From Candidatus Alcyoniella australis (lineage in GTDB: Bacteria > Lernaellota > Lernaellaia > JAVCCG01 > Alcyoniellaceae), in assembly GCA_030765605.1 (NCBI GenBank), contig JAVCCG010000098.1, forward strand, positions 1-64,000: DNA of 64,000 nucleotides, in the 5' to 3' direction. Shown here piece after piece: positions 1-17,492 of the stretch. The notes beneath the pieces are model-generated. The model did no database searches and had not been told where the DNA came from. It worked only from the letters and a program-made list of their open reading frames with translations. How positions within the stretch are numbered: position 1 is the first letter of the stretch; each line of letters begins with the position of its first letter. A program made the translations under genes and the position numbers.

Positions 1-2318
1 AAGACCTTCAGGCAGGCTGAGCGCTCGAACTCCTCCGGTCGGTTGACACGTTCTAACCAGTGAGCCTGGGGCGCCTTTCCCTGATCTAAACGCGATTGAG
101 CAACGCGGGAGACCACGCCTTTCTTGGGCTGGTTGTACGCCTGCTGGAAAGCGAGTTGAGGGAAATCCTTGCTGTACCGGTCGATTGTTCCAGCTTCGCT
201 CTCCACAAACTGCTTCCATTCTGTCCAATCCGGCCCGAGCAGGCCTGACGTAGGTACACGTTTTTCTGCATCGATGAAATCGCGCACCAAATCGTAGACC
301 ATGCCGTGATTGACCTTGGCCTCGATAAAGCCCAGATCGCAGAGCGTTTGTCCGAGACGCTTCCACTGGGCCTCCTGCCGGACTGCCATCAGGTGGTGCG
401 GCAGTTCGGAGACCGTACGTTTCGGTGCACCCTGCCAGGGGTTATCCTTGTCCGGGTTGCCCTTGTCAAAGAAATAGTTGGCCAGCTCCTTGTGCGCGGC
501 CTGCGCGTCGGTTTCGTCCGGCAGGTAGCGCGCTCGCACAGCCTTGAACAGGTTGCGGTGGTAGAAATCAACGTACGGCCCGCGCTTGAGCAGGTAGGGT
601 CGCAGGCGGCGCAGCATGGGGAACAGGTCTTCGTCTTTATCCAAACCGGCGACCAGCTCCTTCAGCTCCGCCTCGCTGAGTCCGTTGCGCGAGACGGCAA
701 CCAGCGACATTGCTTTGCGAACCACTTGCCTGTCAAACTCGCGTTCGACCTGATCCAGCACCTGATCGAACAGGTCGTCCAGCCCCTCAGACGGAAACGC
801 CTTGATTCGCTCATTGAGCCGCTCGAACGAGCCGAAGCCACGCAGCTCCTCTAGCGACACCGCGAGGTAAAGCGGGTTGTCCGTGGCCGGGTTGTCGAGC
901 AGCAACTTAACTTGGTCATTGTCGAGCCGTTTGGCCGCCAATGAGGGGATGAGCCGAACGATCTCCCTCCGGTCGTCGATAGTGAGCGGCTCGACTTGCT
1001 TGATCTCCCAATCCCGCCGCCTTGCCTCCTGCGTCGTGATCGAGGGCTCCGCCCCGTCGTCAATTGTGCTTAGCACCACGCGCACGCCCGGCGGAAGCTC
1101 CGCGGGCAGCCAGTGCAGGTTGTCGGCCTGCGACCAGGCGTCGAACTGGTTCACGGCGTCGATGAGGAACACCGCCTTTTTGCCGTCAGGGATCTTTTTC
1201 AGAAACTCCTGAAACGTCATAGGCAGCTTGTTGGGGTCGGAGGGAATCAAGTCCTCAATATTGAATGCCCTCTGAAGCTCCAGGCAGAAACGGCGTAGCG
1301 TGGTGTAGAGACTCGTCGAGCCCGGCGATGCGCCGACGAAATGCGGCACGTCGAGCGCGTAGCCCTTGCCTTTCACGGAGTCGAGATAGAGCTTGCCCAG
1401 AATCGCCGATTTGCCGCAGCCGGAAGGCCCTGTGAGCAGCAGCGGTTTAGGCGAGTCGCTTTTTAGATACGATGCGAGGTCCGCCAGCAACTTCTCCCGG
1501 CCAACGAAAACCCGCAGCCGCGACTCGATGAAACGCTCGTGAAAGTCGCGCTCGTCGTCCAGCCATTCCTCGCCTTGCGGCAACGGCTCATCAACCTTAG
1601 CGCCCGCCGCCTGGAACTCGCGCTCTTCCTCTTCGAGCCAGTCGAACTTCCGGCAGCATCCTTCCCACAGGTCCTTTTCGACCTGCTCGCCGAACTCCTT
1701 GAGCCCTTCGACTCGACCATGAGTTCCGTCAGGATTCTCGTGTGCTGGATTCCATTGACACGGGTAACGGTCGAAGAGCGGCAGGTGATGATCGGCGATC
1801 TCTCTCTTGAGCGCGTCGAGTTTTTTCCTCAGATCGGGCGCGGCGTCAACGAATACCTCTGAGCGCAGCGGCTCGGGCACTTTCTTCAGAAACGCCGGGT
1901 CCCGGAAGTAGAAGAAGGCCAGGCTCTCCATCTTGGGATCGCGCAGCACGCCGTGGACGATCTCCAGCGCCGTGACCGAGTGCTCGCACAGCTCGGCGTC
2001 TTTGATCCAGCCGTACTTGGCCAGCGCCTCCGCCGGATGCGATTTGGGCACCCATCCGTAGCGCTCGCCCAGCAGCCCGATAAAGAAGGGGCGGCTCTCG
2101 TCGATAAGCTGAAGGCATAGGCCGAGCACCTGGTCGTTGTCAGCGTCCTGCTTGGTCACGCCCCAGCGCAGGTCGATGTCAACGAAGTAGATGCGGTGCC
2201 GCTCTAGCTTTTCCCGTAGCCCCGGGAAGACCGACCGCACCAGGTAGTCCCGCTCCGCCTGCATGTCGCGGAAGGTCGATGAGATGAAAACCCGGACCGT
2301 TTGCCATTTGCGGCGCAT
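1..2318 (-). CDS. DUF4062-NACHT NLR-like ATPase (3' end outside window)
   Basis: An uninterrupted frame of 772 codons runs leftward from ATG 2318, preceded by AAGGGGG at 5 nt, and leaves the window without a stop, so the C terminus is unseen. Residues 1 to about 170 form a DUF4062 domain with the hallmark VFISSTFRDMQAERD and IDLRWGV motifs, as in animal NWD1/TEP1/NPHP3-type proteins. A STAND/NACHT NTPase follows: Walker A GPSGCGKS at 297-304 and a Walker B-like VFLIDAVNQF near 385, then a winged-helix-like region. The family pairs a Rossmann-like N-terminal module with a signalling ATPase; in bacteria such architecture suggests a conflict or defence role (inference). It is the last gene of the leftward AAA operon, 162 bp after the zinc-ribbon gene, and a distant paralogue of the 9665 gene. 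The missing C terminus probably carries sensor repeats. Confidence 0.85.
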   Translation of the reverse strand, partial: MRRKWQTVRVFISSTFRDMQAERDYLVRSVFPGLREKLERHRIYFVDIDLRWGVTKQDADNDQVLGLCLQLIDESRPFFIGLLGERYGWVPKSHPAEALAKYGWIKDAELCEHSVTALEIVHGVLRDPKMESLAFFYFRDPAFLKKVPEPLRSEVFVDAAPDLRKKLDALKREIADHHLPLFDRYPCQWNPAHENPDGTHGRVEGLKEFGEQVEKDLWEGCCRKFDWLEEEEREFQAAGAKVDEPLPQGEEWLDDERDFHERFIESRLRVFVGREKLLADLASYLKSDSPKPLLLTGPSGCGKSAILGKLYLDSVKGKGYALDVPHFVGASPGSTSLYTTLRRFCLELQRAFNIEDLIPSDPNKLPMTFQEFLKKIPDGKKAVFLIDAVNQFDAWSQADNLHWLPAELPPGVRVVLSTIDDGAEPSITTQEARRRDWEIKQVEPLTIDDRREIVRLIPSLAAKRLDNDQVKLLLDNPATDNPLYLAVSLEELRGFGSFERLNERIKAFPSEGLDDLFDQVLDQVEREFDRQVVRKAMSLVAVSRNGLSEAELKELVAGLDKDEDLFPMLRRLRPYLLKRGPYVDFYHRNLFKAVRARYLPDETDAQAAHKELANYFFDKGNPDKDNPWQGAPKRTVSELPHHLMAVRQEAQWKRLGQTLCDLGFIEAKVNHGMVYDLVRDFIDAEKRVPTSGLLGPDWTEWKQFVESEAGTIDRYSKDFPQLAFQQAYNQPKKGVVSRVAQSRLDQGKAPQAHWLERVNRPEEFERSACLKV

Positions 2319-2699: not shown

Positions 2700-3860
2700 T
2701 CATTTATTATTTTTAGCAATATTCTCTTTGTCGTTTTCTATGTCCAAGATGACGTCAATTATCCTACGGGACTGGGTCTCAAGCTTCGTCGAGGCCTTGC
2801 GCACTTCCGGATTCTCACCAAGATTTCCGGCGACCAGGTGCATGCGATTCACGTTGGCGAAAACCAGCTTGTGCAGCGGGACCTTGGTTTGCCTAGATCC
2901 CCATACCACCTCGGTGCGCAAGAATGCGCTGAAGGCTTTTCCCAACTTCGAAAACTGTCTCAAGGCAACGCGCGGGATATCGTTCAGAGCGCTGCCGGGA
3001 ACCCTTTTCAGGCAGGCCATAAATGCGACAATTGCCGGCTGCCTGTAGACCTTCTCAAAGAACTCGAAAAGATCGCCGCTGGCAACAGCTCGCAGCTCGC
3101 ACAGTTCGCCGCTCAGACACAGGTAGAGCAGCTCGATAGCACGCTGAAAGCAGGGCATATTGAAATGCCGCGCCGCCAAAACTCCCAGCCGTTGGTCCTC
3201 GTGCCAGGCCGCCTGGAACACGTGCCTGCCCAAGAGGTACAGCAGCTCGTCCGTTTGGCGATCGATGCGCCACTGGTCACCCTTTATCGCCCTTATTGCG
3301 GGAAGATGTTTCATTCGCTCACGAAACTGCGCAAGGCGCAAATAATAGGTTTCGTGCCCGGTTGACATGAGTTTAACAAATCTATCGTCATGCATTGGAT
3401 AATCCGGGCTGATGTATAAATCCTCGACGATCAACCCGTATTCCGACCAGTAATCACGGTGAATCCGGCACAGATAATATACCGGCATGTGTGTGGCAAG
3501 TTGTCGAACCTGAATGCTAAGATCGAATCCGTTGATGCTTATCAGGGCGGTCTTGATGGTATTTAGCTTCGTCAATGAAACCACGTGCTTCCCGAAATTG
3601 TCCCCCAACTCGAAATTTGCGCTGAGCAACGCGGCGATCATGCCCAAATCAAATAAGCTCCCCCCCTCTTGCTGCAGAACAAGCCTTCTTTTGTCATATG
3701 CTTTAATTTTTTCAATCAACGGTTTGAGGATTTTTTTTAGATCGCCGGAAGCCCTGGGGTAAACGTAATTCGTATATTGCCACCCATCGTAATCGCCCTC
3801 GGCGAGACTCTCGGTCTTGCTCATCGGATACTTCCATGGATCATCGTTTTGATAACTCAT
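2700..3860 (-). CDS. conserved-context protein of unknown function, 386 aa
   Basis: I do not recognise this protein. It has no signal peptide, no clear membrane segment and no nucleotide-binding motif. It looks like a soluble, mostly alpha-helical protein with many aromatic and charged residues in the first half and a basic, helical C-terminal third. The ATG at 3860 has GGGAGA 4 nt upstream and overlaps the end of the vWA gene by 20 bp, which indicates translational coupling. The reading frame is AT-richer than the flanking genes. Position between the vWA protein and the zinc-ribbon gene makes it a candidate component or substrate of the MoxR-vWA machinery; that role is inferred from context only. 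Confidence 0.8.
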   Translation of the reverse strand: MSYQNDDPWKYPMSKTESLAEGDYDGWQYTNYVYPRASGDLKKILKPLIEKIKAYDKRRLVLQQEGGSLFDLGMIAALLSANFELGDNFGKHVVSLTKLNTIKTALISINGFDLSIQVRQLATHMPVYYLCRIHRDYWSEYGLIVEDLYISPDYPMHDDRFVKLMSTGHETYYLRLAQFRERMKHLPAIRAIKGDQWRIDRQTDELLYLLGRHVFQAAWHEDQRLGVLAARHFNMPCFQRAIELLYLCLSGELCELRAVASGDLFEFFEKVYRQPAIVAFMACLKRVPGSALNDIPRVALRQFSKLGKAFSAFLRTEVVWGSRQTKVPLHKLVFANVNRMHLVAGNLGENPEVRKASTKLETQSRRIIDVILDIENDKENIAKNNK

Positions 3861-7083: not shown

Positions 7084-9333
7084 TCAATAGGGGTCGATCA
7101 CGAGATTGCCGTCTTGTCCGGCCCGAACACGTATTTTTTTCCCTGCCAGATCGGTTTTTGGGTTTAACGCGCATAGCAGGGCGTCGGATGCCGCGACGCG
7201 TCCGAGTTCCAACAGGCCCCGGGCGCCGAAAGCTCCTGCACCTTTCCCCATGCACGCCACGAGGAACTCCCCGATTCCGGGTTCGAGTTCAACGGCTGCA
7301 ATTGGTATCTGAAGATGCTCTGTAGCCGAGCGGACTGCGGAGCGCACCGCGCGCTCGACAATGGTTGCCAGGGCCTCGCTCGTCAGGGGCTCGAAAAGGA
7401 TCGGCGTGCCGACGCGGCTGAGGAAGGCGCTCGAAAGAACTCTCTTGATCTCGGCTGACACGCGGAAGGCGATCTCCTGCTTGGAGCGTTCGCCAAAGCC
7501 GATCGACCTGTATAGCGCCTCGTCCATGCCCTCGGGCAGGTTCATGGTAAAGGAGAAGATAATGTTCGAGCATGAGAACATTGCGCCCGTCGCGCTTTGG
7601 GCCTCGCCCGTCTCGAGGACCTGGAGAAACAGGTCGGCCAGGGCGCTGCGAACCGAGGGGACGGCGTGGTCCAGGTCGCTGATCTCGAGCAATACGCCCT
7701 GGTGATGCTTGGCAGCCTGCTCCAACCGTCCGCTTTGATGTGAGCCCACTATTCCACGACCGGAGCCGAGCAACTGGGCCGCGGCCGTATGGTAATCGGG
7801 CATGCTCGCCGCATCGATGTTGACGTATGGAACATTCAACGAATCAGCGAGCATCACCGCGCTTGCGGATTTTCCGGTCGCAGGGGTGCCCTGTGCGCAA
7901 TAGCGAACCGGCTGATGCTCAGGGCGGGTCAGGATCTCCGCTCGTAATCGTTCGACCAGCATGCGTAGAGCCGCATCCTGTGCGAGCAGCTTCTCTTGCA
8001 AAAAACAGAGCAGGCCCGGGTCGGTCAGAACGCGGGTGAAGTGCTCCTGTACAGCGGGCGCGCGACTGACGCGGGGCTTGGCGCTCAACCCGGCCAGGGA
8101 TTCGGAAAGAGCGCTGACCGATGTTACGAACGAGGCGCTCGATTCAGTTAAGCAGCTTTTTCCTGACGACCATTGGCTTACAGCCCTTCCGACGACTGCG
8201 GGCAGAAAACGTTTTTGACCCGCGGGATCTTTTTCCCGCAGCACGCTTATAACCGTTTGGCACAGCCTGGCCTGCGCAGATTGCGGAATGCCGCCGGCAA
8301 AACGGGATTGGGACCAGATTGCAAAACCAGCGAGATCCTCGAGCGAAACCTCGGGAACCCGCATGACCACAGGGCAGAGCGGATCGCTTTGTCCGCCTTG
8401 CCCGCCGTGAAACACCCCCTGGAGCTGTTCATAGGTGCCTGTAAACAACACCGGCGTGTTGGCCGAAGACAGCGCAGCCAACATGGCCTGCATCTCGTTG
8501 CCCAGCTCATAGGGGCTTGTCCCGAGGCTGATGCGTGACGCTGGCACCACAGCGGTTCCCGGTGCCTCCCTGGCAATATCAACTATCGCCTTGGCGTTGA
8601 TCGCCGGCAGCAGACATCGGCCGAAAACGCGGCCGGACTGCTCCCCGGCCTTGGATAAGGCTGAGAGGGCGTACTCCAGGCATGTCTCAAACGGCGAGGC
8701 TACGGCGATGCACAGGGACCCGGACATGAAATCGCATAGCTGCTCGGCCCAGCGATTGACCTCTGAGCCTGAATCGATATTCCAGGAATAGACCGGCTGC
8801 AAGATCTGCGAGTGCTTTTCAAACAGCTTGTCCAGGTCGCTTTGGCTGCGCGGCGCAGGGACCTGCTTTTGAAGATCTTTGGCCAACTCGTCGATTCTCT
8901 TCAACTCGTTGAGCAGGGCGTTCGCCCGGACGGCTGAAAGGGGAACCGCCTTGGCCTGGAGCTCCAAGCAATATGAATAGTCGCTGGTTTTTTTCCAAAT
9001 TGAAGGGGCGAGCACGCGGCATTTATTGCCCAGGGAGGACAGGGATCTGCAAAACATCCCCATAGAGATTCGTATGTTCTCGGGCGCCCTGAGCACTTCA
9101 ACCTTCAACGAGATGATTGAATCGCCCATTGATTCGCCGATAATCGATAGGATTCCTCGCTTGCTCTTGTTGCTCTTCTCAAACGCTGTGAATACCCGTC
9201 CGCCTCGGGACACCTCCACTTGCAAGCCATTGATGTGTTTGCATAGGTCGGCAATTTGCTGCAGGGCCAGTTCAGCGGAGATCCCAGCGTCCTGGGAATC
9301 GTTTTTGGCATCAATGATGGGGTCTAGTTCCAT
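7084..9333 (-). CDS. ClpA/B-like AAA+ ATPase, first gene of leftward operon
   Basis: A 749-aa protein. The C-terminal half matches a ClpA/ClpB second ATPase domain: Walker A GTPATGKS at 482-489, the central segment GIVGSHQSGRL, a sensor region IIFSFTMN, the FLSRVGTPILFEPL motif that aligns with FLNRID of ClpB, and a small C-terminal domain with GAFGARGLLEL. Walker B is altered, EISDLDHA, with Ser552 where the metal-binding Asp should be. Residues about 190-400 look like a second, degenerate AAA domain lacking a P-loop (inference). No Clp N-domain and no ClpP-binding loop are evident. It is the first gene after the sigma-54 promoter at 9441-9456, with about 100 nt of leader. A protein-remodelling role within the MoxR-vWA system is likely. 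Confidence 0.82.
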   Translation of the reverse strand: MELDPIIDAKNDSQDAGISAELALQQIADLCKHINGLQVEVSRGGRVFTAFEKSNKSKRGILSIIGESMGDSIISLKVEVLRAPENIRISMGMFCRSLSSLGNKCRVLAPSIWKKTSDYSYCLELQAKAVPLSAVRANALLNELKRIDELAKDLQKQVPAPRSQSDLDKLFEKHSQILQPVYSWNIDSGSEVNRWAEQLCDFMSGSLCIAVASPFETCLEYALSALSKAGEQSGRVFGRCLLPAINAKAIVDIAREAPGTAVVPASRISLGTSPYELGNEMQAMLAALSSANTPVLFTGTYEQLQGVFHGGQGGQSDPLCPVVMRVPEVSLEDLAGFAIWSQSRFAGGIPQSAQARLCQTVISVLREKDPAGQKRFLPAVVGRAVSQWSSGKSCLTESSASFVTSVSALSESLAGLSAKPRVSRAPAVQEHFTRVLTDPGLLCFLQEKLLAQDAALRMLVERLRAEILTRPEHQPVRYCAQGTPATGKSASAVMLADSLNVPYVNIDAASMPDYHTAAAQLLGSGRGIVGSHQSGRLEQAAKHHQGVLLEISDLDHAVPSVRSALADLFLQVLETGEAQSATGAMFSCSNIIFSFTMNLPEGMDEALYRSIGFGERSKQEIAFRVSAEIKRVLSSAFLSRVGTPILFEPLTSEALATIVERAVRSAVRSATEHLQIPIAAVELEPGIGEFLVACMGKGAGAFGARGLLELGRVAASDALLCALNPKTDLAGKKIRVRAGQDGNLVIDPY

Positions 9334-9664
9334 GGACCTTGCCTGTGTTTGAATTCAACAGGAGCTTCTACCTCCAGGGCGGATCGCCCGGCTTTCTTTA
9401 CCTGGGTTTTCCGTTGACTTACTTTCCTATTAAACCGAATTGCATTAGATGTGCCAATGGCTGCCTAGACAGGGTTGTCCCTTAATTTCAATAGGTTATC
9501 AAACGCCCGGGTGCTTTATTGCGTTGAATTACCCGCCTTTGCCCGCAGGAAATGGCGATTTAATCCTGATGGTGATAGCATTACAAGACTTTATCCATCG
9601 ATCGGCGTGCACATGGATGTGGATCTATTCGATGTGACAAGTTTGGCGCAATGAGGGGGGCACG
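9334..9664. other. 331-bp divergent intergenic region
   Basis: This gap separates the leftward AAA operon from the rightward NLR-like operon. It holds the sigma-54 site described separately. On the plus strand a weaker GG-N10-GC pattern occurs at 9509-9522, but only its -12 half resembles the consensus. I see no open frame with a ribosome-binding site, no tRNA and no strong hairpin. The composition is AT-richer than the coding DNA around it, as expected for a regulatory region. Confidence 0.6.
9441..9456 (-). promoter_or_regulatory. sigma-54 (-24/-12) promoter for the AAA operon
   Basis: Read on the minus strand, TTGGCACA, four bases, then ATGCA matches the RpoN consensus YTGGCACG-N4-TTGCW at 11 of 13 positions, with the invariant GG and GC spaced by exactly 10 bp. 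Predicted transcription begins near 9430 and runs into the ClpB-like gene at 9333. An RpoN promoter implies that the operon is silent until an AAA+ activator remodels the polymerase. An NtrC-like gene lies in the divergent operon, but it lacks the usual sigma-54-contacting loop, so the activator may be elsewhere. Confidence 0.7.
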
Positions 9665-12600
9665 ATGAGTACGACGGTAACTGCCTGGAAAGCCCGTCCG
9701 ATGTTTGTGAGCTCGACGTTCCGCGACATGCAGGCGGAACGCGATCGTTTGCGCAATTTTGTCTTCCCGCTGCTGGAGGAGCGGCTGCGCGAGCGGCGGG
9801 TCCACCTGGAGCCGATCGACCTGCGCCAGGGCGTGGAAACCTCTGCTGTGCCAGACGAGGCCGGCCGCGAGATGCTTGTGCTCAAGGTGTGTCTCGACGA
9901 GATCAAGCGTAGCCGCCCGTTTCTGTTCGTGCTGCTCGGCGACCGCTATGGTTGGGTGCCACCGGAAGGCCGCATGGCCGCCGCTGCGCAGGAGGAGGGC
10001 TTCCAGGCCGACCTCGCGGGCAAGAGCGTGACTGCGCTGGAGGTCGAGTTCGGCATCCTGAAGAAAGACGCGGAGCAGAAACGCCGGAGCTTCTTCTTCT
10101 TCCGCGATCCGCTGCCGTGTCAGGACCCGGACTTCAACGACGAGTTCTCGCCCGATCCAGCCGTGCGCTCCGGACACGCGAAGCTGGAAGCACTGAAGAC
10201 GAAAATCGCCACCGACCCGGAACTCGGAGCACGCGTTCACCACTACCAAGCGGGGTGGGACGGACGCGTGATTCTTTCGGAGGAATGGGACAAGCAGGTT
10301 GTCGACCTGATTTGGCCTGACCTCGAAGAAGAGACGCGGGCCCTGGCCGCGCAGCCGCCGCCGACCTGGGAGGAGGCCGAGCGGCAGGCGCTGGCCGAGT
10401 TCGTCGAGCACCGTTCGTTGGGTTTCGTCGGGCGCGAGGAGATAACGCAGCAGTTGTCAGACGTGGCGCGAGGCGACGAGGCGCAATCCCGTCTGGGCGC
10501 GTGCATCACGGGCGGGCCGGGCTCGGGCAAGAGCGCGCTGTTCGCGCACCTGTATAGCAAGCTGACCAGGGCCCAGGACGCTCAGCTCGTTCTGGCCAAC
10601 GCGGCGGGGATCAGTGCGCGCAGCGGCTCCGTGGATGCGATGCTGCGGCGTTGGATTCAGGAACTGGCCGACTTCCTCAATATGGCCAACCCGTTGCCGG
10701 AGAAGGCGACGGAAGAGGACGTGGACAATACATTCTATTCGCTGCTGAGCCGGGCTTCCCAGCAACTGCGCGTTGTGGTGCTGATCGACGCGCTCAACCA
10801 GTTTGAGCAAAGCGTGCGTGCGCAGCACCTGACCTGGTTCCGACCCAAGTCCTGGCCTGCCAACGCGCGGATTATCGCCTCATCGCTGTCGTGTCAGCCG
10901 GCGGACATTCTCGCGCGGTCCGAAGGCGTCGCGCGCTTGGAACTTCAGCCCCTGGCTGAGCGGGATGCCGAGCAGATCGCACGTAACGTGTGGAAACGCT
11001 ATCACCGGCAGTTCAACAACGAGGTCTATCGGGCACTGTGTGAAAAGCGGACATCGGATGGCGCGGCGGCATTGGGCAATCCGCTCTGGCTCAACCTGGC
11101 GCTGGAACAGCTGAACTTGCTCGATGCGGACGACTTCAGCCGAGCGGAGCAGGAGTTCACGGGCTCGCCGGAGGAGCGGTTGCAAGCCATGCAGGTTGAC
11201 GTGGCGCGCCGCCTGCCGGCCGAGGTCGAGGGGCTGTTCGACTGGATGCTCGCACGCGCGGAGAAGGTCCACGGCGTGGGCTGGACTCGGGCGTTCACGG
11301 CGGCGATCGCCCTAAGCCGCTTCGGCTGGCGGGAGAGCGATTTGCTGACACTGGTGCCGAGCCTGGCGCCGGCGCTTTCTCCGGGCTGGGCAGAGACGGA
11401 CTACGACGCCCTGCGCCTGGCCTCGCTGCGCCGGGCGTTTCGCGGGCAGGTGGTCCGGCGTGGAACGTTGGAGCAGTGGGACTTCTTTCATGCTCAGATG
11501 CGGGCGTCGGTCTTACGGCGCTGTGTGGATAATGATTTGGCCGCGAAGAGACTCCACGGTTTGATCGCCGACCATCTGCTCAGCCTGCCTGATGACGACT
11601 CGCTGCGCGAGAGCGAGACCATGCACCACCTGGTGGAGGCTGACGATCAGCCTCGCGCGGCACATTTCTATGCAACAGTGGTCCATGCGAATCCGGCGAC
11701 CGAGACGCTTGCCCGGCAAATATTAGATGCCACGGAGTCCGATTCACGGGATGCAGTGGAGTGGATTATCGGCCTGCTCGTCCAGCCGGGCTTGGCGTCT
11801 GTGCGGGTTGCCGCGCTCTGCAATCGTTTTCAGTTCGACCTTGAGGATGCACTGGCTATTACGGGCAATCTAGTGCCCCGACTTCGCTTGCTGATATCTA
11901 CGCGGGACGCAGGCGAGCGTCTGGCAACGGCCGATCCCAGCAACACCGGCTGGCAGCGGGACCTGTCCGTCAGCCATAACAAGCTGGGCGACGTGCTGCG
12001 GGCGCAGGGCGACTTGGCCGGGGCGCTGCGGGAATACCGGGCGGCTTTGGAGATTAGCGAGCGTCTGGCAACGGCCGATCCCAGCAACGCCAAACGGCAG
12101 CGGGATCTGTCCATCAGCCATGAAAAACTGGGCAACGTGCTGCGGGCGCAGGGCGATCTGGCCGGGGCGCTGCGGGAATACCGGGCGGATTTGGAGATTA
12201 GCGAGCGTCTGGCAACGGCCGATTCCAGCAACGCCGGCTGGCAGCGGGACCTGTCCCTCAGCCATATCAACCTGGGCGACGTGCTGCGGGATCAGGGCGA
12301 CCTGGCCGGGGCGCTGAGGGAATACCGGGCGAGCTTGCAGATTAGCGAGCGTCTGACCACGACCGATCCCAGCAACACCGGCTGGCAGCGGAACCTGTCC
12401 GTCAGCCATAGCAAGCTGGGCGACGTGCTGCGGGATCAGGGCGACCTGGCCGGGGCGCTGAGGGAATACCGGGCGAGCTTGCAGATTAGCGAGCGTCTGA
12501 CCGCGGCCGATCCCAGCAACGCCGGCTGGCAGCGGGACCTGTACATCAGTTACTGGAGAATGGCTGGTATCAGCGAGAATACGGGACAGGGTGACGCGAT

Positions 12601-12715
12601 GAATTTGTATCGGAAGGCTTACGAGCAATTATCGGGTATGAAAAAGCGCGGCATCATGCAACCGGCGGACGAAAAGTTTCTGACGCGATTGCAAACGAAG
12701 GTCGGCGGCAGGTAA
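9665..12715 (+). CDS. DUF4062-NACHT protein with C-terminal tandem TPR-like repeats
   Basis: A 1016-aa protein. Residues 1-170 are a DUF4062 domain with MFVSSTFRDMQAERD and IDLRQGV motifs. A NACHT/STAND ATPase follows, with Walker A GGPGSGKS at 283-290 and a Walker B-like VVVLIDALNQFEQ around 370-380, then helical winged-helix regions. From residue 751 there are five 48-aa TPR-like repeats, the first four nearly identical in protein and DNA. This is the layout of an NLR-like sensor: N-terminal effector-like module, oligomerising ATPase and repeat sensor. A strong GAGGGGGG lies just before ATG. It heads the rightward operon and is divergent from the MoxR-vWA operon. A defence or self-recognition role is inferred. 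The DUF4062 and NACHT parts are distantly homologous to the 2318 gene. Confidence 0.9.
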   Translation: MSTTVTAWKARPMFVSSTFRDMQAERDRLRNFVFPLLEERLRERRVHLEPIDLRQGVETSAVPDEAGREMLVLKVCLDEIKRSRPFLFVLLGDRYGWVPPEGRMAAAAQEEGFQADLAGKSVTALEVEFGILKKDAEQKRRSFFFFRDPLPCQDPDFNDEFSPDPAVRSGHAKLEALKTKIATDPELGARVHHYQAGWDGRVILSEEWDKQVVDLIWPDLEEETRALAAQPPPTWEEAERQALAEFVEHRSLGFVGREEITQQLSDVARGDEAQSRLGACITGGPGSGKSALFAHLYSKLTRAQDAQLVLANAAGISARSGSVDAMLRRWIQELADFLNMANPLPEKATEEDVDNTFYSLLSRASQQLRVVVLIDALNQFEQSVRAQHLTWFRPKSWPANARIIASSLSCQPADILARSEGVARLELQPLAERDAEQIARNVWKRYHRQFNNEVYRALCEKRTSDGAAALGNPLWLNLALEQLNLLDADDFSRAEQEFTGSPEERLQAMQVDVARRLPAEVEGLFDWMLARAEKVHGVGWTRAFTAAIALSRFGWRESDLLTLVPSLAPALSPGWAETDYDALRLASLRRAFRGQVVRRGTLEQWDFFHAQMRASVLRRCVDNDLAAKRLHGLIADHLLSLPDDDSLRESETMHHLVEADDQPRAAHFYATVVHANPATETLARQILDATESDSRDAVEWIIGLLVQPGLASVRVAALCNRFQFDLEDALAITGNLVPRLRLLISTRDAGERLATADPSNTGWQRDLSVSHNKLGDVLRAQGDLAGALREYRAALEISERLATADPSNAKRQRDLSISHEKLGNVLRAQGDLAGALREYRADLEISERLATADSSNAGWQRDLSLSHINLGDVLRDQGDLAGALREYRASLQISERLTTTDPSNTGWQRNLSVSHSKLGDVLRDQGDLAGALREYRASLQISERLTAADPSNAGWQRDLYISYWRMAGISENTGQGDAMNLYRKAYEQLSGMKKRGIMQPADEKFLTRLQTKVGGR
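11915..12634 (+). repeat. five tandem 144-bp repeats encoding TPR-like units
   Basis: Units begin at 11915, 12059, 12203, 12347 and 12491, each starting with codons for ERL and exactly 144 bp apart. The first four differ from one another at few positions; the fifth diverges after about 55 bp. Each unit encodes one 48-aa helical hairpin ending in GDLAGALREYRA-type TPR sequence. The near identity suggests recent unit duplication or gene conversion, so copy number is likely to vary between strains. Confidence 0.9.
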
Positions 12716-12770
12716 GACCGAAGAATAAGGATATATCCACGGTCCGATTGCTGTGAATTGGGAGGCGCAA

Positions 12771-14489
12771 ATGAAGGTTCGGACATTGAAATTCGTCGCG
12801 GGATCCGACGACGGAGTTCCGGTCGTGTGCGAGGATTTTGGTCAGAACGAGGTGATGAGGATAATTGAGGAGAACAATTCGGACCCGCCCGCGCTCTATG
12901 TCGTGAATCCGGACGGCCTGGCAGAGCTTCGCAGATTGACCAGGCACGGCTACGTGGCAGACCTTGGAAAGCAAAGCCCGCCCATGCGCAGGGACCTGTT
13001 CAAATGCTTCCAGGGATGCGGGCAAATTCCGCTGATCGAGGGCAAATATAAAAGCTCGGGCAGGCTCGAGCAGGGTGTGACGAGCTTCTTAAATAGAGTC
13101 CACGAGATCAGGCCGGGAAAAGCCGGCAAGCGCCCGCCGATCTATATTCTCGGCACCACGGAAGCGATCTTCAACGAGCTGGTGATAAAGGGCAAGACCA
13201 AAGATGCGGCGGCCGCCAGGGGCGGCGAGGACGATCAGGCCACGTTAAACCGCATCCTGGAGCAGATGCTCGGAGAATGTGCCGGAGTCAACCCCGAGGA
13301 TCAAGAGCGGATCGATGAGCTGGCGCAGGTCTTCATCGGCAACTCCATTGAGGCACAGGCCGTGCGCTGGCTGGCGCTGCGCGCGGCCCAGGACGACGTG
13401 TCCGTGCTGATTCTCGGGGAGTCGGGAACCGGCAAGGAGATCGTGGCGAACATCATCCATGGCTATAGCCGCCGGGGGAAAAGGCAGGACATGCTTTTTC
13501 CCCTGAACTGCGCCGCAATCAGCCCTTATCTGTTTGAGGCGATTCTCTTCGGCCAAGAGAAGATTTGGCATGACTCGCCCGCACGGGACGGCATCTTGAC
13601 CAAGGCCAACGGCGGCACCGTGTTCCTCGACGAGATCGGCGACCTTTTGCTGGACCACCAGACAAAGCTGCTGCGTTTTTTATCCACCGGCAAATACCTG
13701 CCCATCGGCGCGACCAAAGAGCGTTCATCCGACGTGCGGATCATCGCAGCCACCAACCAGGATCTTTTCAGGATGGTGCTGGCCAAGGAGTTCCGCGAAG
13801 ACCTCTATTACCGCCTACTGCCGATGCTGATCCGCACGCCGGCCCTGCGAGACCATGCCCAGGATATCGCCCACCTAGCCCAGCATTGCTGGAGGAAAAT
13901 TTGTCAAGATCCCAGCGCTGTCTTGCCAAAAGATGTTCTATCTGAGCTTCAAATGCATAAATGGCCGGGAAATATCAGGGAGATGAAATTTATTCTGAAG
14001 AGCATGCACGTGATGTTCCCCGGACAAAAGCTGAGCCGCAAGCACTTTCGGATCGCATTGCAATACCATTACGGCCCGCAATTCGCGCCCAGCACCACGG
14101 AGGAGCTGCTCGACGCCGGTCTCCCCTGGCTTGAGACAATACGCCATTTACATCGCGTGGAGGAGCTTGTCCGAGCGTGCAAGGTATGCGTCGGCCCCCT
14201 ACTCTCAGCCTCCGAAATGAGCAAGCAGACCGTTCTGGCAGTCAAGGGCCAGTTGGGATATCACCTTTTCGAACTGGAGCGCCTGCTGGAATCTCGGGAC
14301 CTGTTAGATAATGACGCAATGTGGAACCTGGTCGTCCAGTTCAAGGAGAGAGTGGCGGAGTTGAGGGAATGCCTGCCGGAAAACGAGAGAAGGGCCGGGC
14401 GACTGTGGAACAAGGAAACAAAACGCGCCCACAAGAAAACCGCGTCGATGCTGGGCAAGACGATCGAGAGGCTGATTTCAGGAGCTTGA
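12771..14489 (+). CDS. NtrC-like AAA+ protein lacking GAFTGA and HTH
   Basis: A 572-aa protein starting at ATG 12771; a GGGAGG 5 nt upstream favours this start over the in-frame GTG at 12753. Residues 1 to about 180 are an unrecognised alpha/beta domain. The rest is a sigma-54-activator-type AAA+ domain: Walker A GESGTGKE at 216-223, Walker B GGTVFLDE at 281-288, sensor I RIIAATNQD, the FREDLYYRL arginine-finger region and WPGNIREMK sensor II. The loop between LFGQEK and the Walker B, where GAFTGA belongs, reads IWHDSPA and is shorter. No Fis-type DNA-binding helix-turn-helix follows; the C-terminal 130 residues are charged helices. It follows the NLR-like gene by 55 bp. It is probably a signalling or remodelling ATPase of the island rather than a classic activator. 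Confidence 0.85.
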   Translation: MKVRTLKFVAGSDDGVPVVCEDFGQNEVMRIIEENNSDPPALYVVNPDGLAELRRLTRHGYVADLGKQSPPMRRDLFKCFQGCGQIPLIEGKYKSSGRLEQGVTSFLNRVHEIRPGKAGKRPPIYILGTTEAIFNELVIKGKTKDAAAARGGEDDQATLNRILEQMLGECAGVNPEDQERIDELAQVFIGNSIEAQAVRWLALRAAQDDVSVLILGESGTGKEIVANIIHGYSRRGKRQDMLFPLNCAAISPYLFEAILFGQEKIWHDSPARDGILTKANGGTVFLDEIGDLLLDHQTKLLRFLSTGKYLPIGATKERSSDVRIIAATNQDLFRMVLAKEFREDLYYRLLPMLIRTPALRDHAQDIAHLAQHCWRKICQDPSAVLPKDVLSELQMHKWPGNIREMKFILKSMHVMFPGQKLSRKHFRIALQYHYGPQFAPSTTEELLDAGLPWLETIRHLHRVEELVRACKVCVGPLLSASEMSKQTVLAVKGQLGYHLFELERLLESRDLLDNDAMWNLVVQFKERVAELRECLPENERRAGRLWNKETKRAHKKTASMLGKTIERLISGA

Positions 14490-14745: not shown

Positions 14746-15638
14746 TCAGGCGGCCAAACGATAGCTGTGATGCAGACCGTTCAGGATCGGTAGGGAAACC
14801 AGCGCGCCTTTGCCTTCAAGATTCCGGCTTTGGGTAATATCCTCGGCTGGCACGGAAATCCTTTTGACTCCCTGGTGGTATCTCTCGTGGTTGTAGAAGT
14901 CTCGGTATTCACTCAAAACACAAATCAGATGCCGCTCATTGAAAATCAGCATGTGATCCAGGCATTCCCGTCGTAGCGTACCGATCAATCGTTCGCAATA
15001 TGCGTTCGCGTTGGGTGCTTCAAATGGAGTCGAAATTCCCCGGATATTCATTGTATGGACCAACCAGTAGTCCAACGAAGAGCGGCAGGAAGCGGTTTTT
15101 CCATTGAATCTGACCCTAACAGGCTTCCCCAACTGACCAAAGATACCGTCGTTATCATGGATAAGAAATTTGGGAGATTCATCCCAGGTGGCTTGACGAA
15201 TTTGCTGCTTCAACCAATCCAGGGTCGGGTGTTGTGTCACTGTAATGTAAACGATCCGTCGGCTTTCCAGTTCCATGATGACGAGGATGTAAATCTGGGC
15301 GAAGAAAAAGGTGACTTGAACGCAGAAATCGAAGGACCAGATGGCGGATGCATGGTTTTTCAGAAAGGTGCTCCATCGCTGGATATCCCGGGGAGGCTTC
15401 GACTTATTGATCCGGTATCGGTCTACGGTGCTCGGGGCATGCACAACACCGAAAAGCTCTTTCAGCATTCCGGCGATTCGCCTGCCGCTGAAGTCCGGGT
15501 AATCGGCGGAAATGTGCTTGATAAATTCGATATGCTCCTTGGTAATGGTCGGTCTGCCCGCTTTCTTTTTCGGGTTCGACAGCTTTCGCCAATAGTCCTT
15601 GAAGCGCCTTTGGTTCCATCGTACGACAGTTTCCGGTT
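14746..15638 (-). pseudogene. rve-type transposase, 5' end lost
   Basis: The frame encodes a DDE integrase core: WSFDFC supplies the first Asp, LIHDNDGIFG the second and NANAYCERLIGTLRRE the catalytic Glu, followed by YHQGV and a C-terminal tail typical of IS481/IS3-like transposases. Upstream of the apparent ATG at 15468 the same frame stays open and reads like the helix-turn-helix part of the enzyme (KKKAGRPTITKEHI) until 15639, where another element's terminal repeat begins. No proper start codon or N terminus remains, so the gene was cut by that insertion and is probably inactive. Downstream, 14490-14745 holds nothing I can assign. Confidence 0.7.
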
Positions 15639-15663
15639 TGACCTTGCCCCGGTTTAGTGGACA
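15639..15663. repeat. IS3-type terminal repeat
   Basis: The 25-bp stretch beginning TGACCTTGCCCCGG and ending TAGTGGACA has the form of an IS3-family end and lies directly after the stop of the neighbouring orfB remnant. A related end, TGACCTTCCCCCGAAAGTGG, occurs at 17080. The junction at 15639 marks where this element interrupts the integrase-type transposase. Confidence 0.55.
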
Positions 15664-15672
15664 GGTATTTCG

Positions 15673-16098
15673 CTAAGCTGCCACGCTGGCAGCCTGTTGT
15701 GCAATGCGTTCATACTCGGCCGGGCTGAGATAGCCCAGGTACGAGTGACTACGCTTGCGGTTATAGAAAACCTCGATGTATTCGTGGATCGCAATGCGGG
15801 CCGCCTCGCGGGTCTGCCATGCACAGCGGTCCTCGAGCTCGGATTGCAGCGTGCTGAAGAAGCTCTCGACCACCGCATTGTCCCAGCAGTCGCCCTTGCG
15901 GCTCATGCTGCACACGATCCCCGCGGCGTCCAGCGCACACCGATAGGCTCGGCTCGCGTACTGGCTCCCCCGGTCCGAGTGGTGCAGCAGCCCCGACGAC
16001 GGACAACGCTGCATAAGCGCCATTTGCAGCGCGCTCAGGGCCAGGAGTGATTCCGATCTTTGATTGAAGCCTACCCGATCATTTTCTGTTTGAGTCAA
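15673..16098 (-). pseudogene. IS3-family orfB transposase, 3' fragment
   Basis: The last 120 or so codons of an IS3 orfB: the second catalytic Asp lies in LLHHSDRGSQYAS, the Glu in DNAVVESFFSTLQSEL, and the conserved YNRKRSHSYLGYLSPAEYE end is intact. The first catalytic Asp and the whole N-terminal half are missing; the frame upstream of about 16045 no longer resembles the family, so the break point is there. It is a decayed copy that cannot transpose by itself. The terminal repeat at 15639-15663 is its right end. Confidence 0.8.
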
Positions 16099-16149
16099 AT
16101 ATCCTCTGGTAGTCTTGTCCGGTTAAAGATGTATAAAGATCCTCTTCCT

Positions 16150-16722
16150 TCATAGTACCGTCTGAACACAGGAATCGAAATGTTTTGATAGCCTCGCAAA
16201 CACAAACCTGATTCCGGCCACATGCGATTCGACACTCTCAAAAAGACCCCAGAGCCCTTTTATTATTTGGTTTACCAGCATTTCCCGGTAATCGATGGTC
16301 TCAGGAGTGACCTTACCGGTAAAATAATCATGTCTGGAAGAATGATACTCCCACTCCATTGCGTTTCCCAATTCCTTCAAGTCTATCCCATCAATTGGCT
16401 CAAGTTCTTTTACTCGTTTTAGCGCCATTATCAACTGAAAGCGAAATTCCGAATCATGCTTACGTTGCCCTTCCAGACTATCCGCGACATCATGACATAT
16501 CTCATGTATGATAAGGTGTTGAACTTGGTAATCATGTTCTAATCCCGGTTTTACTCTGATTGCCATACACTTTCTGTCACAGCGCCCATAAGCATTATCG
16601 CCCACGAACGTCGGTGCTAACCTCCATTGATTGTCAGGGTCCCAATTTGGGAATAGGGTTTCTCTTATCCATTTGTAGATTTTCTGTTCCCGATCAGTCA
16701 GACCGCTTCGTTCCGCATACAT
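16150..16722 (-). CDS. putative HExxH zinc metallopeptidase-like protein
   Basis: A 190-aa soluble protein containing LIIHEICHDVADS, an HExxH motif preceded by hydrophobic residues, as in zincin metallopeptidases and SprT- or IrrE-like proteins. Three cysteines or so occur near RCDRKC, which might bind metal too. The third zinc ligand cannot be assigned. The gene sits between transposase remnants and has lower G+C than the core genes, so it looks like cargo or a passenger brought with mobile DNA. The start at 16722 is the only reasonable ATG but lacks a strong ribosome-binding site. Function beyond the motif is not supported. Confidence 0.55.
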   Translation of the reverse strand: MYAERSGLTDREQKIYKWIRETLFPNWDPDNQWRLAPTFVGDNAYGRCDRKCMAIRVKPGLEHDYQVQHLIIHEICHDVADSLEGQRKHDSEFRFQLIMALKRVKELEPIDGIDLKELGNAMEWEYHSSRHDYFTGKVTPETIDYREMLVNQIIKGLWGLFESVESHVAGIRFVFARLSKHFDSCVQTVL

Positions 16723-16867
16723 TCAGAGGTCACCCATTTCTCTTCTTATCAACAGCAGATTTTAATCTTCATCCTGAACCTCAGCACAGGTCAGATTGAT
16801 AAATACTATTAAACTTTGCGCCCCTATTCAAGCGCGGAGTCTAGCCTGATATTAATGATCCCCTTTA

Positions 16868-17079
16868 ACCTGGGAGGGAAGGCGGACACTGTCTGAACCC
16901 TTCTGGACCATCATCGAACCCTTCCTTATCGAGCGACCCGTCGCCAAGCCGAAGATCACAAAGTCCCTTGAACCCAGTCGGTTAGAACGCCTCCAGCGCG
17001 CCCAGGAGATGTTGAAGGTCTTGGAGCAGGATGGCTTGGGTTACCGCGAAATAGGGGCTCTTTTCGGCGTTTCCGGGCC
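16868..17079 (+). pseudogene. recombinase-like C-terminal remnant
   Basis: Between 16723 and 17080 no complete gene is visible, but the plus frame through 16868-17079 is open and protein-like: TWEGRRTLSEPFW, then a charged helix rich in RLERLQRAQEML and a helix-turn-helix-like DGLGYREIGALFGVS. This resembles the DNA-binding end of a recombinase or transposase. It has no start codon and is cut at its 3' side by the IS end at 17080. Assignment is tentative. Confidence 0.35.
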
Positions 17080-17105
17080 TGACCTTCCCCCGAAAGTGGT
17101 ACCAC
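17080..17105. repeat. second IS3-type terminal repeat
   Basis: TGACCTTCCCCCGAAAGTGG followed by TACCAC resembles the end at 15639-15663 and lies at the 3' side of another orfB fragment. It marks the boundary between the recombinase-like remnant and this insertion sequence. Confidence 0.5.
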
Positions 17106-17492
17106 TCATTGCGGTAGTCCCAGGGTAGCCGCTTGGATGCGAGACCCCCCAAAGGTCTCGTCGCCGACAAGCGGCGGCAGGATCGATTCCGGTGCCGGTG
17201 GGCGGTAGCCCAATGCGCTGTGGGGGCGCACCGTATTGTATTCCCGCCGCCACCTTTCGATCAGCACCTGCGCCTCTTTGAGCGTATCAAACAGTTCACG
17301 ATTGAGCAATTCGTCTCTCAGTTTTCCGTTGAAGCTCTCCACGTATCCATTCTCCCAGGGGCTGCCCGGCTCGATAAAAAGCGGTTTTACATCCAGGGTC
17401 TTCAGCCAATCCCGCGCCGCCTGCCTCTTGCCTGGAACGCGGGCGTTTTTCTGTGATAGGAATGCGCCATGATAAGTAAAAATTTCGAGCAA
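17106..17492 (-). pseudogene. IS3-family orfB transposase, 3' fragment (second type)
   Basis: The frame contains ARDWLKTLDVKPLFIEPG, SPWENGYVESFNGKLRDEL with the catalytic Glu, and WRREYNTVRPHSALGYRPP, the standard C-terminal part of an IS3 orfB. The catalytic aspartates and N terminus are missing upstream of about 17430. The remaining 5' codons overlap the start of the acetyltransferase gene on the other strand and are not transposase-like. This is a different IS3 subtype from the fragment at 15673. Confidence 0.75.

Follow-up and report, generated by a model that had tools for sequence, protein, structure and literature searches.

Promoters of the sigma-54 (-24/-12) class that are controlled by enhancer-binding AAA+ ATPases (bEBPs) combine TGGCAC/TTGC-type elements with a GG-N10-GC spacing, lie in intergenic regions of genomes that carry rpoN and may have an AAA+ regulator-like gene nearby. 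The GAFTGA (L1) loop is the part of these activators that contacts sigma-54. The RtcR and RtcR-PspF regulators of RNA repair and restriction loci are composed of CARF, AAA and HTH domains, and RtcR-type regulators have led to the prediction that defence-like operons can be under sigma-54 control (PMC4012209). In the MoxR-vWA ternary conflict systems a MoxR-like ATPase adjoins a MIDAS-bearing protein, together with further components such as VMAP, iSTAND, FtsH or beta-propeller proteins and with STAND NTPases in the vicinity (Kaur et al. 2020, PMC7159879). A MoxR ATPase with a vWA-like partner is also found in the NorQ/NorD and CbbQ/CbbO chaperones, whose clients are metalloenzymes or Rubisco.

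In this work we analyzed 64,000 nucleotides of Candidatus Alcyoniella australis (contig JAVCCG010000098.1, positions 1 to 64,000), hereafter the window, which contain a four-gene operon preceded by a putative sigma-54 promoter (Table 1). The site shares the properties listed above with known bEBP-controlled promoters, but an enhancer site was not found, and the adjacent AAA+ protein, encoded from position 12771 (the 12771 protein), lacks the GAFTGA loop and the HTH. This protein resembles RtcR and RtcR-PspF in being an NtrC-type AAA+ protein with an unknown N-terminal domain in a defence-like locus, and differs from them in the lack of a CARF match, an HTH and GAFTGA. The operon has in common with the ternary systems the adjoining MoxR-like ATPase and MIDAS-bearing protein, the further components and the nearby STAND NTPases; its partners, however, are a ClpA/B-type AAA+ protein and an unknown fourth protein, and its families were unrecognised by the Pfam or PADLOC models tried. 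It shares the MoxR ATPase and vWA-like partner with NorQ/NorD and CbbQ/CbbO, but is a different operon with an extra ClpA/B-like ATPase and no metalloenzyme or Rubisco client in sight. Among the kinds described, the ternary systems of Kaur et al. (PMC7159879) come closest and differ in their partners; the operon looks like an undescribed MoxR-vWA variant with a ClpA/B-type partner.

Table 1. Genes of the locus and best sigma-54-like sites upstream of the lead gene and its relatives
Feature	Location	Strand	Score	Shuffle p	Remarks
Second DUF4062-NACHT gene	3..2318	-			Downstream of the operon, runs off the contig start
Conserved protein without any known family, 386 aa	2700..3860	-			Operon gene 4
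vWA-like protein, 727 aa	3841..6024	-			Operon gene 3; MIDAS motif DGSGS...T...D
MoxR-like AAA+ ATPase, 343 aa	6036..7067	-			Operon gene 2
ClpA/B-type AAA+ protein, 749 aa, uncharacterised N-terminal half	7084..9333	-			Operon gene 1 (lead gene); relatives in G004, G007 and G008
Putative sigma-54 (-24/-12) promoter TGGCACATCTAATGCA, best site of the window	9441..9456	-	14.9	0.0012	From sequence, weight matrix and recurrence; predicted +1 near 9430
DUF4062-NACHT-TPR (STAND) gene	9665..12715	+			Divergent from the operon, co-directional with the 12771 gene
NtrC-type AAA+ protein, 572 aa	12771..14489	+			Alternative ORF start at 12753 (GTG) possible
Best site in G004, CGGCATGACTTGTGCT	L031 844-859		10.8	0.043	
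Best site in G007, TGGCATATTCATGGCA	L043 3912-3927		10.7	0.0032	
Best site in G008, TGGCATTAGTATTGCT	L056 1538-1523		14.3	0.0010	

The four genes are tightly packed, with gaps of at most 16 nt or overlapping ends. In the lead protein, the ClpA/ClpB-type AAA+ domain match corresponds to the C-terminal half. The product of the third gene is called vWA-like by motif only; its MIDAS-like residues (D514, S516, S518, T593 and D625) are invariant in three relatives, Pfam and PDB profile searches with it gave no match, and its fold prediction (mean pLDDT 34) was too poor for a fold search. The MoxR-like protein matched bpMoxR below the cut-off. No VMAP, iSTAND, FtsH or beta-propeller domain was matched in the operon by Pfam, the ClpA/B-like protein being present instead. 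None of the defence models matched the MoxR-like, vWA-like or fourth protein, the PADLOC matches of the ClpA/B-like protein were weak, and no convincing match of the operon to a known defence family was obtained. The operon may encode a protein-remodelling machine acting in stress or defence.

A scan of the window located the 16-mer TGGCACATCTAATGCA on the minus strand at 9456-9441, with a single mismatch to TGGCAC-N5-TTGCA and an exact GG-N10-GC spacing (GG at 9455-9454, GC at 9443-9442). The near-consensus sigma-54 site that a first-pass annotation had reported ahead of the ClpB-like gene, with this same exact spacing, is therefore present; that annotation left the strand unstated, and its predicted start at 9430 implies the minus strand. 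The -12 C lies 109 nt from the ATG of the ClpA/B-like gene (9333), and the transcript is predicted to start near 9430, with a leader of about 96 nt.

The bare sigma-54 pattern is common. With up to two mismatches allowed, it occurs 68 times in the window against 76.5 expected from shuffles, and the whole genome contains 395+384 matches, below the 466+520 of a reversed control pattern. The motif alone is therefore no evidence, and it is the place and conservation of the site that make the case; genome-wide motif counting, having given no excess over the reversed control, was discarded as uninformative support for the promoter. Sites were scored using a fixed, untrained matrix whose approximate weights follow the published consensus; the consensus tGGcacg/tTGCt given in PMC4641369 agrees with it. 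With the wider consensus TGGCACG-N4-TTGCW the window site was better than chance (score 14.9), this score being reached by dinucleotide shuffles of the 331-nt upstream region with p = 0.0012 and by none of 153 upstream regions from a 400-kb sample of the window genome. A search for a sigma-70-type site at 9300-9700 found none.

The coding strand of the region upstream of the lead gene was scored in the window and in three genomes with relatives of the lead protein, namely G004 (54% identity, PMZC01000364.1), G007 (48% identity, JAFGSM010000073.1) and G008 (a copy cut short near a contig end, with just the N-terminal half present). The first-pass annotation had proposed conservation in homologous loci as a check, and the outcome supports it: a sigma-54-like site was found upstream of all three relatives (Fisher p = 2e-5 with the window left out), and GG and GC are kept at their 10-nt spacing in each of them. 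A score of 10.7 was reached by one of the 153 sampled upstream regions of the window genome, and 14.3 by none. Of these sites, that of G004 (CGGCAT...GTGC, p = 0.043) is weak. The -12 C stands 48, 97 and 131 nt from the ATG in G004, G007 and G008, respectively, compared with 109 nt in the window. Pairwise, the four upstream regions have only short words in common and cannot be aligned, so that the site has not been kept merely by recent or shared descent. All four genomes encode RpoN. Since three independent homologous loci have the site in the corresponding position, and rpoN is present in the four genomes, the ClpA/B-like operon very probably has a true sigma-54 promoter here, and its expression would then depend on RpoN.

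Enhancer-like inverted repeats were sought in all four upstream regions; none was significant beyond chance, and they were dropped as candidate enhancer sites. In L056, a 27-bp palindrome, AAAATCGTCTATTAATTAGACGTTTTT, precedes the sigma-54 site by about 113 nt and is a possible activator site, not significant upon shuffling. In the G004 region (L031 651-905) the opposite strand carries a second, equally good sigma-54-like site, GGGCAATTGAATTGCT (score 11.1), which faces the gene of a 12771-like regulator, as would be expected if sigma-54 drove transcription both ways in this genome. The absence of an enhancer site from the regions searched and the lack of genome-wide enrichment of the pattern would agree with a chance near-consensus match in the window, the operon using another promoter. 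We regard this as highly improbable, given the recurrence upstream of three relatives (combined p = 2e-5), the 153 comparable regions, none of which scores as high, and the failure to find a sigma-70-type site in the region.

The gene order of the window (ClpA/B-like, MoxR, vWA, fourth gene) is found on a single contig in G007 and is kept across two contigs in G004, C74 with the lead gene and C375 with the remaining three; no vWA gene was detected in G008. In L031, at about 3080-3620 on the plus strand, the ClpA/B-like frame runs into an apparent tyrosine recombinase domain at its C-terminus, by integration or misassembly. Within the window's phylum, beyond G000 and G004, the other five genomes gave weak generic AAA+ matches only, and seven of the nine genomes of the G007 group gave none. 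A single-sequence scan of genome contigs found no relatives and an alignment-based scan found two; none was found in the viral contigs scanned. Plasmids gave no match to the vWA-like protein and only generic AAA+ matches to the ClpA/B-like protein. The distribution of the operon is sparse and patchy.

The divergent STAND gene ends in several near-identical TPR units (approximately 11900-12560), and a NACHT/STAND gene also abuts the operon in G004. The GC content of the operon is 0.51-0.59, versus 0.636 for positions 17469-64000. Just to the right of the locus, at 14746-17492 on the minus strand, are three rve-type transposase fragments and a SprT-like gene. The neighbours, the low GC content and the transposase remnants fit an acquired defence-like island, and these, together with the patchy distribution, make the designation as a conflict-type operon plausible. 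The promoter could also be real and the operon a housekeeping or metabolic chaperone system of the NorQ/NorD or CbbQ/CbbO kind. Enzyme maturation is a common role of MoxR-vWA pairs (PMC7159879, PMC9976466), sigma-54 regulons are often metabolic, and three of the four proteins (MoxR-like, vWA-like and fourth) match no defence model. This reading appears somewhat doubtful in view of the STAND/NACHT genes on both sides of the operon in the window and immediately next to it in G004, its patchy distribution, its GC content compared with the rest of the window, and the lack of an obvious client metalloenzyme adjoining it.

The 12771 protein matches the Sigma54_activat domain (E = 1e-47), with intact Walker A, Walker B, sensor I, arginine fingers and sensor II. 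Where GAFTGA is expected it has IWHDSP with a two-residue deletion, LFGQEKIWHDSPARDG standing in place of the loop; the alignment reads LFGQEK-IWHDSPARDG, versus LFGHEK-GAFTGA...RKG in ordinary activators. Among the remaining bEBPs encoded in the window genome, at least 13 keep a GAFTGA-like loop, as far as the script could read. No HTH was matched in the 12771 protein, while two control bEBPs of the same genome clearly match HTH_8, and its fold prediction (mean pLDDT 39) was too poor for a fold search or a decision on the HTH. As the GAFTGA motif is lost and no HTH is recognisable, the protein should not be a canonical sigma-54 activator. We also rejected its identification as RtcR: its matches to the RtcR models of PADLOC and NCBIfam are confined to the AAA part, with no CARF, and the PADLOC match is generic, because the two control bEBPs obtain better scores.

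In G004, a relative of the 12771 protein, cut by contig ends, is directly divergent from the ClpA/B-like gene. The two share the N-terminal domain (33% identity), and a helical C-terminal domain is common to the 12771 protein and another G004 contig, presumably the end of the same gene; the L1 loop of the relative falls in the contig gap. In G007, a different NtrC-type regulator is divergent from the lead gene, with GAYTGA, an MBL-fold N-terminus and a winged-helix candidate, the Penicillinase_R match of which (0.031) falls short of the cut-off. Its identity to the 12771 protein is about 30% in the ATPase and it is closer to ordinary bEBPs, and it was rejected as an orthologue. In this regulator (L043 1132-3738, minus strand) the RNase Z/MBL-fold N-terminus is joined to the NtrC-type AAA+ domain, and an MBL domain looks unusual as the sensor of a sigma-54 activator. 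Also in L043 (128-1012, minus strand) is a gene whose product appears to have a winged helix at its N-terminus, resembles a nucleotidyltransferase in the remainder and matches the PADLOC candidate PDC-M05A (1.6e-9). An NtrC-type ATPase gene near the operon thus recurs in three genomes, and only that of G007 looks like a canonical activator.

The 12771 protein might itself activate the promoter, by means of an unusual L1 loop and with DNA contact through its C-terminal domain or from solution. Its intact ATPase motifs, the strong Sigma54_activat match and the linkage conserved in G004 agree with this possibility, and one D. vulgaris EBP, whose motif has diverged strongly to GVATGV, has been predicted to be still functional (PMC4641369). 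However, IWHDSP with its two-residue deletion is unlike the tolerated variants listed in that study, most GAFTGA mutants cannot activate (PMC7175178), and the HTH seen in the two control bEBPs was not found, so that we consider such a role unlikely. The first-pass annotation had linked the promoter to the RpoN-activator-like gene at 12771. The divergent arrangement in G004 favours the linkage, and the replaced GAFTGA motif and the undetected HTH argue against the activator role.

Taken together, we think it likely that a functional sigma-54 promoter silences the four-gene operon, itself probably a horizontal acquisition, until the promoter is opened by an enhancer-binding ATPase. Sigma-54 RNA polymerase would form a closed complex at 9441-9456, which a bEBP hexamer would then open to give a transcript from about 9430. 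In G007 the divergent GAYTGA regulator would be the obvious activator candidate, and for the window genome we consider a bEBP with the GAFTGA loop, encoded elsewhere, the most likely activator. The 12771 protein would be a linked partner without canonical sigma-54 contact and DNA binding, and its role may be that of a sensor of the trigger or of a modulator of the activator. Only tentatively do we propose the full picture, in which an undescribed sigma-54-silenced operon of two AAA+ ATPases, a vWA-like protein and a fourth protein has recruited a derived NtrC-type ATPase that now serves as a sensor or modulator and not as the activator.

A full-text literature search for sigma-54 and anti-phage defence returned no paper, and in a search for MoxR, vWA, ClpB and sigma-54 together, no paper dealt with such an operon as far as titles and abstracts show. 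The recurrence of the promoter ahead of the same lead gene in four unalignable regions makes the idea of sigma-54 control of defence-like operons testable at one defined site. The adjacent activator-like protein raises the question of what role an ATPase without the sigma-54 contact loop may have beside a sigma-54 promoter.
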